Assembly (NCBI RefSeq): GCF_004115975.1
Contig: NZ_SDDZ01000009.1
Span: forward strand, 1 to 64,000
Reading direction: 5' to 3'
From: Gelidibacter gilvus
GTDB lineage: Bacteria > Bacteroidota > Bacteroidia > Flavobacteriales > Flavobacteriaceae
DNA length: 64,000 nucleotides
Shown here: piece after piece, positions 1 through 64,000 of the stretch
How the letters are laid out: each line of letters starts with the position of its first letter
Position numbering within the stretch: position 1 is the stretch's first letter
Translations under genes and position numbers: made by a program
Notes under the pieces: model-generated
Told to the model about the DNA's origin: nothing
Seen by the model: the letters and a program-made list of their open reading frames with translations, nothing else
Database searches by the model: none

Positions 1-675
1 TCTGCACCCTATTTTGAAAAGCATGAAATGCGCATTCAAAATAGCTGGTTGAACTAACCCCGCTTTTTAGCGGGGTCTCAAGCTTATAGATGCAATATCT
101 CTGCACCCTATTTTGAAAAGCATGAAATGCGCATTCAAAATAGCTGGTTGAACTAACCCCGCTTTTTAGCGGGATCTCAAGCTTATAGATGCAATATCTC
201 TGCACCCTATTTTGAAAAGCATGAAATGCGCATTCAAAATAGCTGGTTGAACTAACCCCGCTTTTTAGCGGGGTCTCAAGCTTATAGATGCAATATTTCT
301 GCACCCTATTTTGTAAAGCATGAAATGCGCATTCAAAATAGCTGGTCGAACTAACCCCGCTTTTTGGCGGGGTCTCAAACTTATAGATGCAATTTCTCTG
401 CACCCTATTTTGTAAAGCATGAAATGCGCATTCAAAATAGCTGGTTGAACTAACCCCGCTTTTTAGCGGGGTCTCAAGCTTATAGACGCCATATTTTTGC
501 ACCCTATTTTGAAAACCATGAAATGCGCATTCAAAATAGCTGGTTGAACTAACCCCGCTTTTTGGCGGGGTCTCAAACTTATAGATGCCATATCTCTGCA
601 CCCTATTTTGATAAGCATGAAATGCGCATTCAAAATAGTTGGTTGAATTAACCCCGCCGAAAGACACGGTCTCAG
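1..675 (+). repeat. Tandem array 1: seven 99-bp double-hairpin repeats
   Basis: Copies begin at 1, 100, 199, 298, 397, 496 and 595, an exact 99-bp period. In copy 1 the arms CTATTTTGA (9-17) and TCAAAATAG (36-44) enclose a small GCAT-GAA-ATGC hairpin (21-31). The block GCTGGTTGAACTAA (44-57) follows, then the hairpin CCCCGC-TTTTTA-GCGGGG (58-75) and a 24-bp linker. Copies 1-3 are almost identical. Copies 4-6 carry a few substitutions. Copy 7 has lost its second hairpin (about 655-675). The array probably extends left of the window. There is no reading frame through it and no U-run after the GC hairpin, so it is not a plain terminator. Its function is unknown. Confidence 0.95.
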
Positions 676-15195: not shown

Positions 15196-15230
15196 AAACC
15201 ACAAACCACAAACCACAAACCACAAACTAT
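15196..15230 (+). repeat. Heptamer microsatellite AAACCAC x5 in the ettA leader
   Basis: Four exact AAACCAC units (15196-15223) and one variant AAACTAT (15224-15230) end 8 bases before the ettA ATG. The resulting leader is A/C-rich and unstructured. A related purine heptamer precedes two genes at 23.7 and 25.1 kb. Confidence 0.85.
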
Positions 15231-19837: not shown

Positions 19838-20008
19838 TTCCCACGAAAGTGGGAACCTTTAAGTTCAGCGTAGCTAATCTCATGAAACAAAAGATTGGTT
19901 TTTTGTTCATGGCGTTCCCACGCGAAAAAGCGTGGTCAGGTTTTCCGCTGTATCTTTTTTCTGAAAAAGAAAAAAGGATGCCGCTGCAACCCTTAACGCG
20001 TGTTTAGG
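19838..20008. repeat. Cluster of four hairpins (dispersed-repeat type) between cluster genes 1 and 2
   Basis: Four inverted repeats lie in series. They are TTCCCAC-GAAA-GTGGGAA (19838-19855), CATGAAACAAAA with TTTTGTTCATG (about 19881-19911), CCACGC-GAAAAA-GCGTGG (about 19919-19934), and a long A/T stem (about 19952-19979) between TTTTCCGCTGT and GCCGCTGCAACCCTTAACGCG. The last block resembles a repeat I remember as common in Flavobacteriaceae intergenic DNA. No ORF is present. Confidence 0.75.
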
Positions 20009-20066
20009 CAATAGCTACATTTGGAATCATTCATAATTTTTCATTATTAATTTTTAATTATAATAA

Positions 20067-23663: not shown

Positions 23664-23759
23664 CTGCCCGTCCGCTTGCCCGAAACTTTTGTAGAGGCGG
23701 ACAGCATTTGCAGAGGCGGGAAACAAGAAACAAGAAACAAGAAACCAGAAACAAGAAAA
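23664..23759 (+). repeat. GC-rich hairpin repeat plus AAGAAAC heptamers before the NUDIX gene
   Basis: GCCTGCCCGTCCGCTTGCCC (23664 on) is followed by GAGGCGGACAGC and GAGGCGGG, a repeat type also seen near 21586 and 39377. Then come the heptamers AAGAAAC at 23725-23731, 23732-23738 and 23739-23745, a variant at 23746-23752, and AAGAAAA. They end 7 bases before the ATG at 23766. Confidence 0.75.
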
Positions 23760-25029: not shown

Positions 25030-25085
25030 AAGAAACAAGAAACAAGAAACAAGAAACAAGAAACAAGAAACAAGAAACAAGAAAT
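25030..25085 (+). repeat. Heptamer microsatellite AAGAAAC x8
   Basis: Seven perfect AAGAAAC units and a final AAGAAAT run without interruption. They end 29 bases before the start codon at 25115. The same heptamer precedes the NUDIX gene. Such perfect short repeats are prone to slippage, and the unit length of 7 affects only leader length, not a reading frame. Confidence 0.95.
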
Positions 25086-27291: not shown

Positions 27292-27410
27292 ATTAGATTT
27301 ACGATTTTTGATTAACGATTTTAGATTGATGATATGATTACACTTCATTTACTCTTAACAACACAAAACAAAACATACAACACACAACAGACAACAAACA
27401 ACATACAACC

Positions 27411-61616: not shown

Positions 61617-62678
61617 ATGTCAAGATCATTAAAGGAATGCAATAATTGTATCCAACAATTTGAGAGCCATTTTCCGCATTGTCCTTATTGTGGTCAGAAA
61701 GCGGGTGATCAATTGACCTTGAATGTTCTTTTCAACAATACCATTAGTAATTATTTTTCCGTTGATGCTCGTTTTTTTAAGAGTTTCATTCCCTTAATGA
61801 TCAAGCCAGGACATCTTCCCAAACAGTTTATCTCAGGCAGAAGATTGATGTATTTGCATCCCGCCCAGATGTACCTTTTTGTTTCAATAGTTTTTTTCTT
61901 TTTATTTTCCTTTGTCAGTCGCAAACAAGTAGAAGGCTTTGACAGTGCAATAAAAAAGGATATTGAACAAAGTCACAGTTTTAGAGATTCCATAAAAAAA
62001 GCGGCAGAGGTTAAAAAAATGAATGAATACGTTTATGAACCGAAAAGTGAGTCAGAAAGTCCAATCATCATAAATAATAAGTTTATTGATTCTGTGACCA
62101 AGGATAAACCGAATAAATCCAATGAAATTTTTAATACTCCCTTTAACGAAATGGAGATAGATTCGATGATTGTTGCCGGTGCTTCAGATGAGGAAATTTA
62201 TAGGAAGTTGGGCATGAAGGCTGATGATGGGTATTTCACCAAGCGCATGTATAAACAAATTCTAAAATTCTTTAAAACTAAAAGTGGAGGGTCGATTTTA
62301 CAAGCTTTCCTTGATAGTATTCCTCTTGCGATGTTTATTCTCTTGCCAATTTTTGCTTTTATTTTAAAACTATTTTATTTTAGAAAAGGACGATTTGTGC
62401 ATCATCTGGTTTTTAGCTTTTACTTTTTTGCTTTTCTATTTAGTGTATTTAGCTTGTTGGTTATTGCCAATTTGATTTGGAAGAATTTTCCTGGGTGGAT
62501 TATGACTTTAACCATGTTTTCAACCTTTTTCTATTTGTTTCTTGGTGTCAAACAACTTTATGGAGGAAGTTATATAAGAAGTTTTATAAAGAGTAGCGCA
62601 ATCAGTTTTTTGTTTTTGTCACTCGTGTTGCCATTTGCATTATTTATTATGGGGTTAATGGCGTTTTTGTTTTATTAG
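61617..62678 (+). CDS. DUF3667 membrane protein with N-terminal zinc ribbon
   Basis: This 353-aa protein starts with a CxxC..CxxC zinc ribbon (C8, C11, C22, C25). The conserved segment RFFKSFIPLMIKPGHLPKQFISGRR (about 50-75) marks DUF3667. Hydrophobic helices lie at about 84-100, 237-257, 263-285, 295-310 and 330-350. A charged loop (about 105-220) separates the first helix from the rest. The function is unknown. Array 2 begins 6 bases after the stop. Confidence 0.88.
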   Translation: MSRSLKECNNCIQQFESHFPHCPYCGQKAGDQLTLNVLFNNTISNYFSVDARFFKSFIPLMIKPGHLPKQFISGRRLMYLHPAQMYLFVSIVFFFLFSFVSRKQVEGFDSAIKKDIEQSHSFRDSIKKAAEVKKMNEYVYEPKSESESPIIINNKFIDSVTKDKPNKSNEIFNTPFNEMEIDSMIVAGASDEEIYRKLGMKADDGYFTKRMYKQILKFFKTKSGGSILQAFLDSIPLAMFILLPIFAFILKLFYFRKGRFVHHLVFSFYFFAFLFSVFSLLVIANLIWKNFPGWIMTLTMFSTFFYLFLGVKQLYGGSYIRSFIKSSAISFLFLSLVLPFALFIMGLMAFLFY

Positions 62679-62683
62679 TGAAA

Positions 62684-63030
62684 CCCAAAATCTAAAAGCG
62701 AAGCGCATTAGGTTTTGCTGGTTGAACTAAACCCGCATTTTTGCGGGATCTATACCCAAAATCTAAAAGCGAAGCGCATTAGGTTTTGCTGGTTGAACTA
62801 ATCCCGCATTTTTGCGGGATCTATACCCAAAACCTAAAAGCGAAAAGCGCATTAGGTTTTGCTGGTTGAACTAATCCCGCATTTTTGCGGGATCTATACC
62901 CAAAACCTAAAAGCGAAAAGCGCATTAGGTTTTGCTGGTTGAACTAAACCCGCATTTTTGCGGGATCTATACCCCTGTCTGCCGACAGGCAGGCAAAACC
63001 TAAAAGCGAAGCATGTTAGTTTTGATGTTT
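62684..63030 (+). repeat. Tandem array 2: four 71-73-bp double-hairpin repeats plus a degenerate fifth
   Basis: Copies begin at 62684, 62755, 62826 and 62899. In copy 3 the arms AAAACCTAA (62829-62837) and TTAGGTTTT (62852-62860) enclose a GCG..CGC core. GCTGGTTGAACTAA (62861-62874) follows, then the hairpin CCCGCA-TTTT-TGCGGG (62876-62891) and a short linker TCTATA. Copies 1 and 2 have AAAATCTAA in the first arm, a wobble change. The fifth unit (62972 on) is decayed and has a CCTGTC-TGCC-GACAGG palindrome inserted. The array lies between convergent DUF3667 and uvrA, so it may also end transcription. Confidence 0.95.
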
Positions 63031-63065: not shown

Positions 63066-64000
63066 CTAAAGCTTCTCCTTCAAATATTTCCCCGTCACTG
63101 AGTTCTTATTCTTCACCAATTCCTCAGGTGTTCCTGCAGCAACTAATTTTCCGCCTCTATCGCCACCTTCTGGACCTAAGTCAATAATATAATCTGCGCA
63201 TTTAATCAGTTCAAGATTATGTTCAATAACAATTATCGAGTGTCCTTGCTCTATCAATGCCTGAAAGGATTTCAAGAGTTTTTTAATGTCGTGAAAGTGT
63301 AATCCTGTAGTAGGCTCATCAAAAATAAATAAGGCATTGTCACTTCTTGAACCTTTTCCTAAAAAAGTCGCCAATTTAATACGTTGAGCTTCACCACCAG
63401 AAAGGGTAGAAGAGCTTTGTCCTAAAGTCACATAGCCCAAACCAACATCTTGTAAAGGCTGTAGTTTACTCTGTATTTTTAATTCATTGTGTTTTTCAAA
63501 GAAGGCAATCGCATCATCAATGGTCATTGTAAGAATGTCGTCAATGTTTTTGTCTTCAAAAGTGACTTCCAATACTTCTTTTTTGAAGCGTTTCCCGTTA
63601 CACGTTTCGCAAGTTAAATGGACATCTGCCATAAACTGCATTTCAATGGTCACTTCGCCATCGCCTTTACAAGTCTCACAACGGCCGCCATCGACATTAA
63701 AACTGAAATGTTTGGCTTGGTAATTCCGTATTTTGCTTAACTTTTGATTGGCATAAAGTGCTCTGATTTCGTCATAAGCCTTCACATAGGTTACGGGATT
63801 GGAACGTGACGAACGTCCAATAGGATTTTGATCGACAAACTCTATGTGCTTTACGTTTCTAAAATTTCCTTTCAATTCAGTAAACTGACCTGCTTTATCG
63901 CCAAACCCCGTCAAATGTTTTTGAATGGCTGGATACAGGATATCCTTGACCAAAGTACTTTTACCACTTCCGGAAACACCTGTAATGACCGTCAACATTT
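63066..64000 (-). CDS. uvrA: Excinuclease ABC subunit A, C-terminal part (cut by window edge)
   Basis: About 311 residues of the C-terminal half of UvrA are visible; the rest lies to the right. The second ATP site has Walker A GVSGSGKST (7-15 of the visible part), a zinc finger with C107, C110, C130 and C133 (CETC...CETC), the ABC signature LSGGEAQR and Walker B LFIFDEPTTGLH. UvrA finds damaged DNA and loads UvrB in nucleotide excision repair. The methionine at 63998 is internal. Confidence 0.96.
   Translation of the reverse strand, partial: MLTVITGVSGSGKSTLVKDILYPAIQKHLTGFGDKAGQFTELKGNFRNVKHIEFVDQNPIGRSSRSNPVTYVKAYDEIRALYANQKLSKIRNYQAKHFSFNVDGGRCETCKGDGEVTIEMQFMADVHLTCETCNGKRFKKEVLEVTFEDKNIDDILTMTIDDAIAFFEKHNELKIQSKLQPLQDVGLGYVTLGQSSSTLSGGEAQRIKLATFLGKGSRSDNALFIFDEPTTGLHFHDIKKLLKSFQALIEQGHSIIVIEHNLELIKCADYIIDLGPEGGDRGGKLVAAGTPEELVKNKNSVTGKYLKEKL

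Follow-up and report, generated by a model that had tools for sequence, protein, structure and literature searches.

Group IIC introns insert directly after a terminator hairpin and its T-tract, and integron attC sites are folded single strands with unpaired bases that occur in arrays and carry an RYYYAAC core. For the Bacteroidetes, the passages of Quentin et al. (2018, PMC6006769) on RAYT subclass 2.6 describe 'atypical secondary structures' that flank the genes, are without a GT[AG]G foot and are copied elsewhere too. We analyzed 64,000 nucleotides of Gelidibacter gilvus DNA (contig NZ_SDDZ01000009.1, positions 1 to 64,000; hereafter the window) and found two arrays of a folded repeat, array 1 with a 99-bp period and array 2 with a spacing of 71-73 bp (Table 1). 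Its shape is conserved although its sequence varies, pointing to a family of structured and partly mobile elements in marine flavobacteria that is as yet unnamed.

Fold of the element in the window and beyond

A sequence-only reading of the window had noted hairpin arms that differ between the arrays and stay complementary, and the pairs were confirmed: CTATTTTGA faces TCAAAATAG in array 1 and AAAATCTAA faces TTAGGTTTT in array 2. The wobble proposed for array 2 was present, with T facing G in copies 1-2 and C facing G in copies 3-4, and the GC hairpin shifted from CCCCGC/GCGGGG to CCCGCA/TGCGGG with its pairing kept. The block common to both arrays, GCTGGTTGAACTAA, had 11 matches with at most 2 mismatches as compared to 0.47 expected by chance. 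Overlooked until now was an outer helix, P1, in which the head TTAGTGAAAC pairs with GGTTGAACTAA, a part of what had been called the identical block. P1 encloses the variable-arm hairpin P2, and P3 is the GC hairpin. Since the two arrays are different loci, comparing them with each other was weak evidence for compensatory change. Array 1 is also cut by the start of the contig, and the first 301 bases of the window were identical to the reverse-complemented end of contig C20, indicating that the window holds only later copies of array 1.

Table 1. Features of the two arrays, their neighbors and other repeats and RNAs in the window (window coordinates unless another contig is named)
Feature	Position	Strand	Remarks
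Array 1, later copies	1-657	+	99-bp period; 7 blocks, the final one degenerate
Array 1, head copy	contig C20, L032:322-406	-	
P2 hairpin, first window copy	9-44	+	arms 9-17 and 36-44 around an inner GCAT/ATGC stem
P1 3' strand GGTTGAACTAA, array 1	47-57	+	partner TTAGTGAAAC only in head copy
P3 hairpin, array 1	58-75	+	CCCCGC-TTTTTA-GCGGGG
Short tandem repeats, 7-bp unit	15196-15227, 23720-23758, 25030-25084, 27357-27409		
Flavo-1 RNA (RF01705)	19930-20014	-	51.3 bits
Gene upstream of array 2, DUF3667 protein	61617-62678	+	353 aa; TAG stop within the element's first bases
Array 2	62675-63030	+	head, 3 more full copies, degenerate tail copy
P1 5' strand TTAGTGAAAC, array 2 head	62675-62684	+	left end of element; overlaps the upstream gene's stop codon
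P2, array 2 head	62687-62716	+	arms 62687-62695 and 62708-62716
P1 3' strand, array 2 head	62720-62730	+	
P3, array 2 head	62732-62747	+	
Inverted repeat CCTGTCTGCCGACAGGCAGG	62974-62993		3' of array 2's last full copy
Gene downstream of array 2, UvrA-like ABC ATPase	63066-63998	-	convergent; name inferred, Pfam match ABC_tran

We aligned 37 heads, the first copies (alignment A1), and scored them against a structure that had been written down by hand; RNAalifold, run independently, predicted a nearly identical fold. The three-helix fold of the + strand, about 80-110 nt long, was conserved. P1 had the form TTAGT-GA-AACY / RGTT-GA-ACTAA; the tandem G.A was present in 35 of the 37 heads, and one head (L054) had Watson-Crick pairs in its place. 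P2 consisted of free complementary arms with a closing C-G pair, a bulge of 2 nt (NT in 36/37 heads) and an inner loop that was mostly AA/GCA. The conserved 5' foot was TTAGTGAAAC, and the GT[AG]G tetranucleotide was absent from the 5' foot of the hairpin in A1. When five elements, three of them from the window arrays, were folded as RNA, each was more stable than 200/200 dinucleotide shuffles (z -5.1 to -7.0), and three elements folded as DNA gave z values of -5.4 to -6.5.

In the genome of G. gilvus we found 15 arrays, each starting with TTAGTGAAAC or a near variant (one base off in L042, L044 and L045) and mostly located behind T-rich DNA. By inspection, the P1 5' strand was missing from the later copies of all 15 and of 5 out of 7 further arrays; in the other two (L155 and L212) it was present in every copy. 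Arrays also occurred in other genera (G248, G353, G256, G373 and Arenibacter records). The inverted repeat listed in Table 1 for array 2, or a near-identical sequence, was also seen in the spacers of L031, L034, L037, L039, L043 and L045, and it is a second repeat nested in the first.

Covariation of heads and fate of later copies

The heads in A1 had 96.9% of their cells paired, and 20 of 30 pairs were changed on both sides. The covariation score was 0.401 relative to 0.141 for shuffled data, with none of 500 shuffles reaching the observed value, and pairing fell to 26-45% when the partner was slid by 1-3 columns. The covariation was carried mostly by P2; two-sided changes occurred in 4 pairs of P1, where 12 of 15 such cells fell in a single pair, and in 3 pairs of P3.

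Compensatory change occurs at the same locus between species. Orthologous heads within the genus were matched by their flanks, giving 71 ortholog pairs in 15 groups, and their arms had a mean Hamming distance of 2.07 out of 10 (23/71 identical) as compared to 4.22 for different loci of the same genome (27/538 identical). Among 20 disjoint ortholog pairs we counted 58 double changes against a permuted mean of 17.9 (maximum 28 in 2000), a count of cells in which one whole-arm replacement contributes several, so that the number of events is smaller. Pairing was preserved in 53 of these 58, while slid partners gave 4-10 double changes, and 23 of 44 single changes left a broken pair. For P1 alone the excess of double changes was not significant (2 observed, 0.45 expected; 118/2000 permutations). 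Departures from Watson-Crick pairing on the + strand were more often G.T than A.C in the genus (55 versus 14, with 48 others) and in 55 distinct heads of other genera (39 versus 11, with 38 others). This excess points to the + strand as the folded strand, though a strand-biased mutation rate could contribute to it.

Complementary arms could also arise by mutation alone if template switching at imperfect palindromes copied one arm onto the other and the fold were unselected. Such copying also predicts the whole-arm replacements seen between orthologs (for example L033 versus L114), and the lack of a significant excess in P1 fits it. However, copying that is blind to the strand does not predict a G.T to A.C ratio of about 4:1, although a strand-biased mutation rate could produce one; conservation also extends to positions that remain unpaired (bulge, G.A pair and loops); later copies with a lost arm show no repair; and two-sided changes are found in P1 and P3 as well. 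Already weakened by these observations, template switching is an unlikely source of the pairing.

Pairing was less well kept in the later copies. With at least 9 of 10 positions required, the arms paired in 70/75 heads versus 57/91 later copies, and 20 of the 43 loci with later copies had at least one that had lost its pairing; when the right arm was shuffled as a control, 11/109 later copies reached the pairing score. The earlier claim that the folded form matters was partly supported: covariation in the 37 heads and the 20 ortholog pairs spoke for it, but non-pairing arms, which it had named as contrary evidence, were found in 34/91 later copies, whereas 9/9 in the window paired.

Genome-wide replacement of copies by one another was not favored, as the arms cluster by locus, and a recent burst was not seen, the arms being nearer to orthologs than to copies in the same genome. 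The arrays at L031 and L037 were alike (91% over 356 bases). With a single left strand opposite many right strands, the arrays may expand and contract by slippage between them. Two contigs of G398 (L144 and L145) were identical over 1,083 compared bases around an element, which is either a duplication or an assembly artefact. In Gelidibacter salicanalis PAMC21136, the retrieved sequence of four contigs (L374, L384, L386 and L403) ended at or close to the core matches, and these assemblies may therefore be broken at arrays. The stretch between two adjacent elements (L116), considered as a possible site of a gene of interest, held just ordinary-looking ORFs.

Placement at gene ends and distribution

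Elements favored the 3' ends of transcription units and often lay at a stop codon or straight after a terminator T-tract. By simple ORF calls, 120 of 121 loci were outside ORFs. Where the upstream ORF was on the same strand (82 loci), 24 elements began at most 10 nt past the stop codon, 1 at 11-45 nt, 31 at 46-70 nt and 26 still farther away. A hairpin with a dG of -10 or below was found directly 5' of 60/124 heads versus 2.4% of shuffles, and 52 of these 60 hairpins had a T-rich tail. At a dG of -8 or below the count was again 60/124, as compared to 7.5% of shuffles and 10.7% at 400 nt upstream; at 40-105 nt downstream it was 31.3%, a stretch that contains further copies in arrays. At this threshold the preceding hairpin was found at 44/70 heads in the genus versus 16/54 elsewhere.

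The main rival to a mobile element is a structured RNA at mRNA 3' ends, putatively transcribed past the stop codon or by terminator read-through, which would bind a protein or protect the end of the message, with the arrays as multi-copy binding sites. Covariation with G.T/G.U exceeding A.C on the + strand, the nearly constant tandem G.A and NT bulge, and persistence beside one gene in different species and, in several cases, in different genera all agree with such an RNA. On the other hand, the heads that lie behind strong hairpins would be poorly transcribed from upstream, the share with a same-strand upstream ORF (82/120) was barely above that at other junctions (160/261), presence varies among species, and different loci have different upstream genes. 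We regard a role as mRNA-end RNA as possible but on the doubtful side. Rather unlikely, in our estimate, is a new class of gene-end element in which the left strand of the array head serves many right strands and the folded form slides along the array, with selection keeping the head fold beside the same genes in different species and genera, acting on message 3' ends or on single-stranded DNA at the replication fork, and with a putative binding protein of its own.

The gene-end position, the likeness of P3 to a terminator stem and the tandem arrays would also fit plain transcription terminators or tandem satellite DNA with no further role. By inspection, however, none of the 37 rows of A1 had a T-run immediately after P3 (the usual sequence there was ATCT, and L064 and L079 became T-rich only a few bases past P3), many of the sites already possess a terminator, and the fold is conserved across genera. 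This explanation is already weakened and we hold it to be very improbable.

The element belongs to a dispersed family that was found almost solely in the Flavobacteriaceae. A 14-base core with at most 2 mismatches had 45 forward and 32 reverse matches in the G. gilvus genome versus 21 and 23 when the pattern was reversed as a control, and a one-mismatch pattern occurred in 22/397 Flavobacteriaceae genomes (17/237 genera). With covariance model R1 at E ≤ 1e-5, matches were found in 80/397 genomes and 63/237 genera of the family when 11 candidates were scored per genome, and in 9/9 genomes of the genus, that of the window included, when 150 were scored (4 to 63 matches; the 63 of G000 include array copies). 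An order-wide draw gave matches in 14/395 genomes, 13 of them in Flavobacteriaceae and one, a weak match (2.9e-6), in another family. The matches listed from a collection scan included Gelidibacter, Arenibacter, Aquimarina, Dokdonia, Kordia, Salegentibacter, Winogradskyella, Hyunsoonleella and other flavobacteria. The sole non-flavobacterium among the matches listed, a Burkholderiales MAG (L388), was without the arms, looked coding-like and was judged by eye to be a chance match.

None of the 4227 families of Rfam 15 matched the element at gathering score, and the matches at permissive E-values lay far below gathering scores and were not credible. The repeat was not found described in open-licence literature, a full-text search with core sequence strings gave no match, and the part of PMC9723704 considered here does not mention it. 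An element matched in 80 of the 397 Flavobacteriaceae genomes drawn, with up to dozens of copies per genome and covarying helices, is without a family in Rfam 15. It lends itself well to the questions of how structured repeats reach gene ends, why they are retained and whether a RAYT enzyme moves them.

Possible insertion, candidate mobilizer and known systems

The left end of the element was sharp: 216 of 217 in-register matches within the same genome (G000, G401 and G398) started within -9 to +4 of the element, the single exception being an identical contig duplicate. Empty sites were found for two loci. At locus A, between the DUF3667 gene and the UvrA-like gene, the element was absent in G395, G244 and G013 and likewise in G397; at locus B the same four genomes had a terminator and T-tract and no element. 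The apparent junctions were TATT^AGTGAAAC and CTTTTT^AGTGAAAC. At locus B of G400 (L207, G400:C1:286700-287500) the terminator T-tract was followed immediately by just a P3-like remnant, resembling the outcome of an excision of P1 and P2 between TTA and TAA. Neither a clean right-hand junction nor a target duplication was found. Some occupied sites seemed common to different genera (G248_L242 and G321_L249; the L040 group and G353_L251), which could be due to retention or to repeated insertion.

RAYT-type genes were present in 26/80 genomes with the element versus 37/317 others (odds ratio 3.6, p 2e-5, uncorrected for kinship), and any Y1 match in 26/30 genomes with the element versus 12/30 without. 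Four genomes with elements (G395, G244, G353 and G330) had no Y1 match at E ≤ 0.001 (G244 carried a RAYT relative broken by stops), and no RAYT was found in the element-rich G353 (29 matches), G177 (32) and G331 (31). Only 1 of 20 Y1/RAYT loci examined was flanked by an element (G036, L329), which lay 212 bases from the gene on the opposite strand. The orientation of elements followed the replichore in G248 (19/21 loci versus 62% of ORFs, p 0.004); the bias was not clear in G353 (10/16), so that the one in G248 may be chance among genomes.

A RAYT/Y1 HUH domain was also seen fused N-terminally to coproporphyrinogen III oxidase HemF, between hemE and hemB (L328:3550-5049, G000:C24). Y1_Tnp scored barely above its cut-off and NF047646 below its own. 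Pfam confirmed HemF for L328 and L329 only; with ORF length (490-553 aa) as the guide, 17/63 RAYT-positive genomes may carry the fusion, with ORFs long enough for it in 12/80 genomes with the element versus 5/317 others. The RAYT ORF stood alone, near a separate 300-aa ORF, in G212, G328 and G138.

Our leading reading, which we hold tentatively and at somewhat under even confidence, is that these are REP/BIME-like, once-mobile elements. Folded single-stranded DNA of the element would insert into T-rich gene ends, with a RAYT-type HUH tyrosine transposase as the candidate enzyme for the putative cutting of the folded strand. Array growth would occur by slippage, since every later copy offers a right strand with which the head's left strand could pair, and the head fold would then be maintained by selection or continuing recognition. 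We favor this reading because of the fold, its covariation and dispersal, the gene-end position, the sharp left end, the empty sites, the arrays, the co-occurrence with RAYT and the strand bias in G248. Counted against it are the element genomes without Y1/RAYT, the rarity of an adjacent RAYT, the missing GT[AG]G foot, right junction, target duplication and recent burst, the weaker link to terminators outside the genus and the unclear bias in G353. The RAYT mobilizer is accordingly a lead and not a finding, plausible but unproven.

Among known systems, Rfam motif RNAs such as Flavo-1 are likewise flavobacterial, intergenic and covarying, but the element has no gathering-level match to any of them and the Flavo-1 of the window is a separate match. 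The element shares arrays and a folded single strand with unpaired bases with integron attC sites; unlike in integrons, no cassette genes lie between its copies, and by inspection its P1 5' strand departs from the RYYYAAC core. It resembles group IIC introns in its site directly behind a terminator hairpin and T-tract, but it is far too short and carries no ORF, and none of the intron families attained its gathering score in the window. With the structures described for RAYT subclass 2.6 it could be compared by description only, which neither shows nor excludes identity. It differs from REP/BIME sequences in its length (about 80-110 nt versus the 21-65 nt given in the relevant passages of PMC6006769), in its three helices with tandem G.A and its frequent site behind a stop codon or terminator, and in that RAYT genes lack a flanking element except in G036 and some element-rich genomes lack RAYT. 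Like the REP/BIME and RAYT (TnpAREP) systems as those passages describe them, however, it is a dispersed extragenic hairpin in up to tens of copies, found in clusters and folding as a single strand; a RAYT-type gene shared its genome in 26/80 cases.
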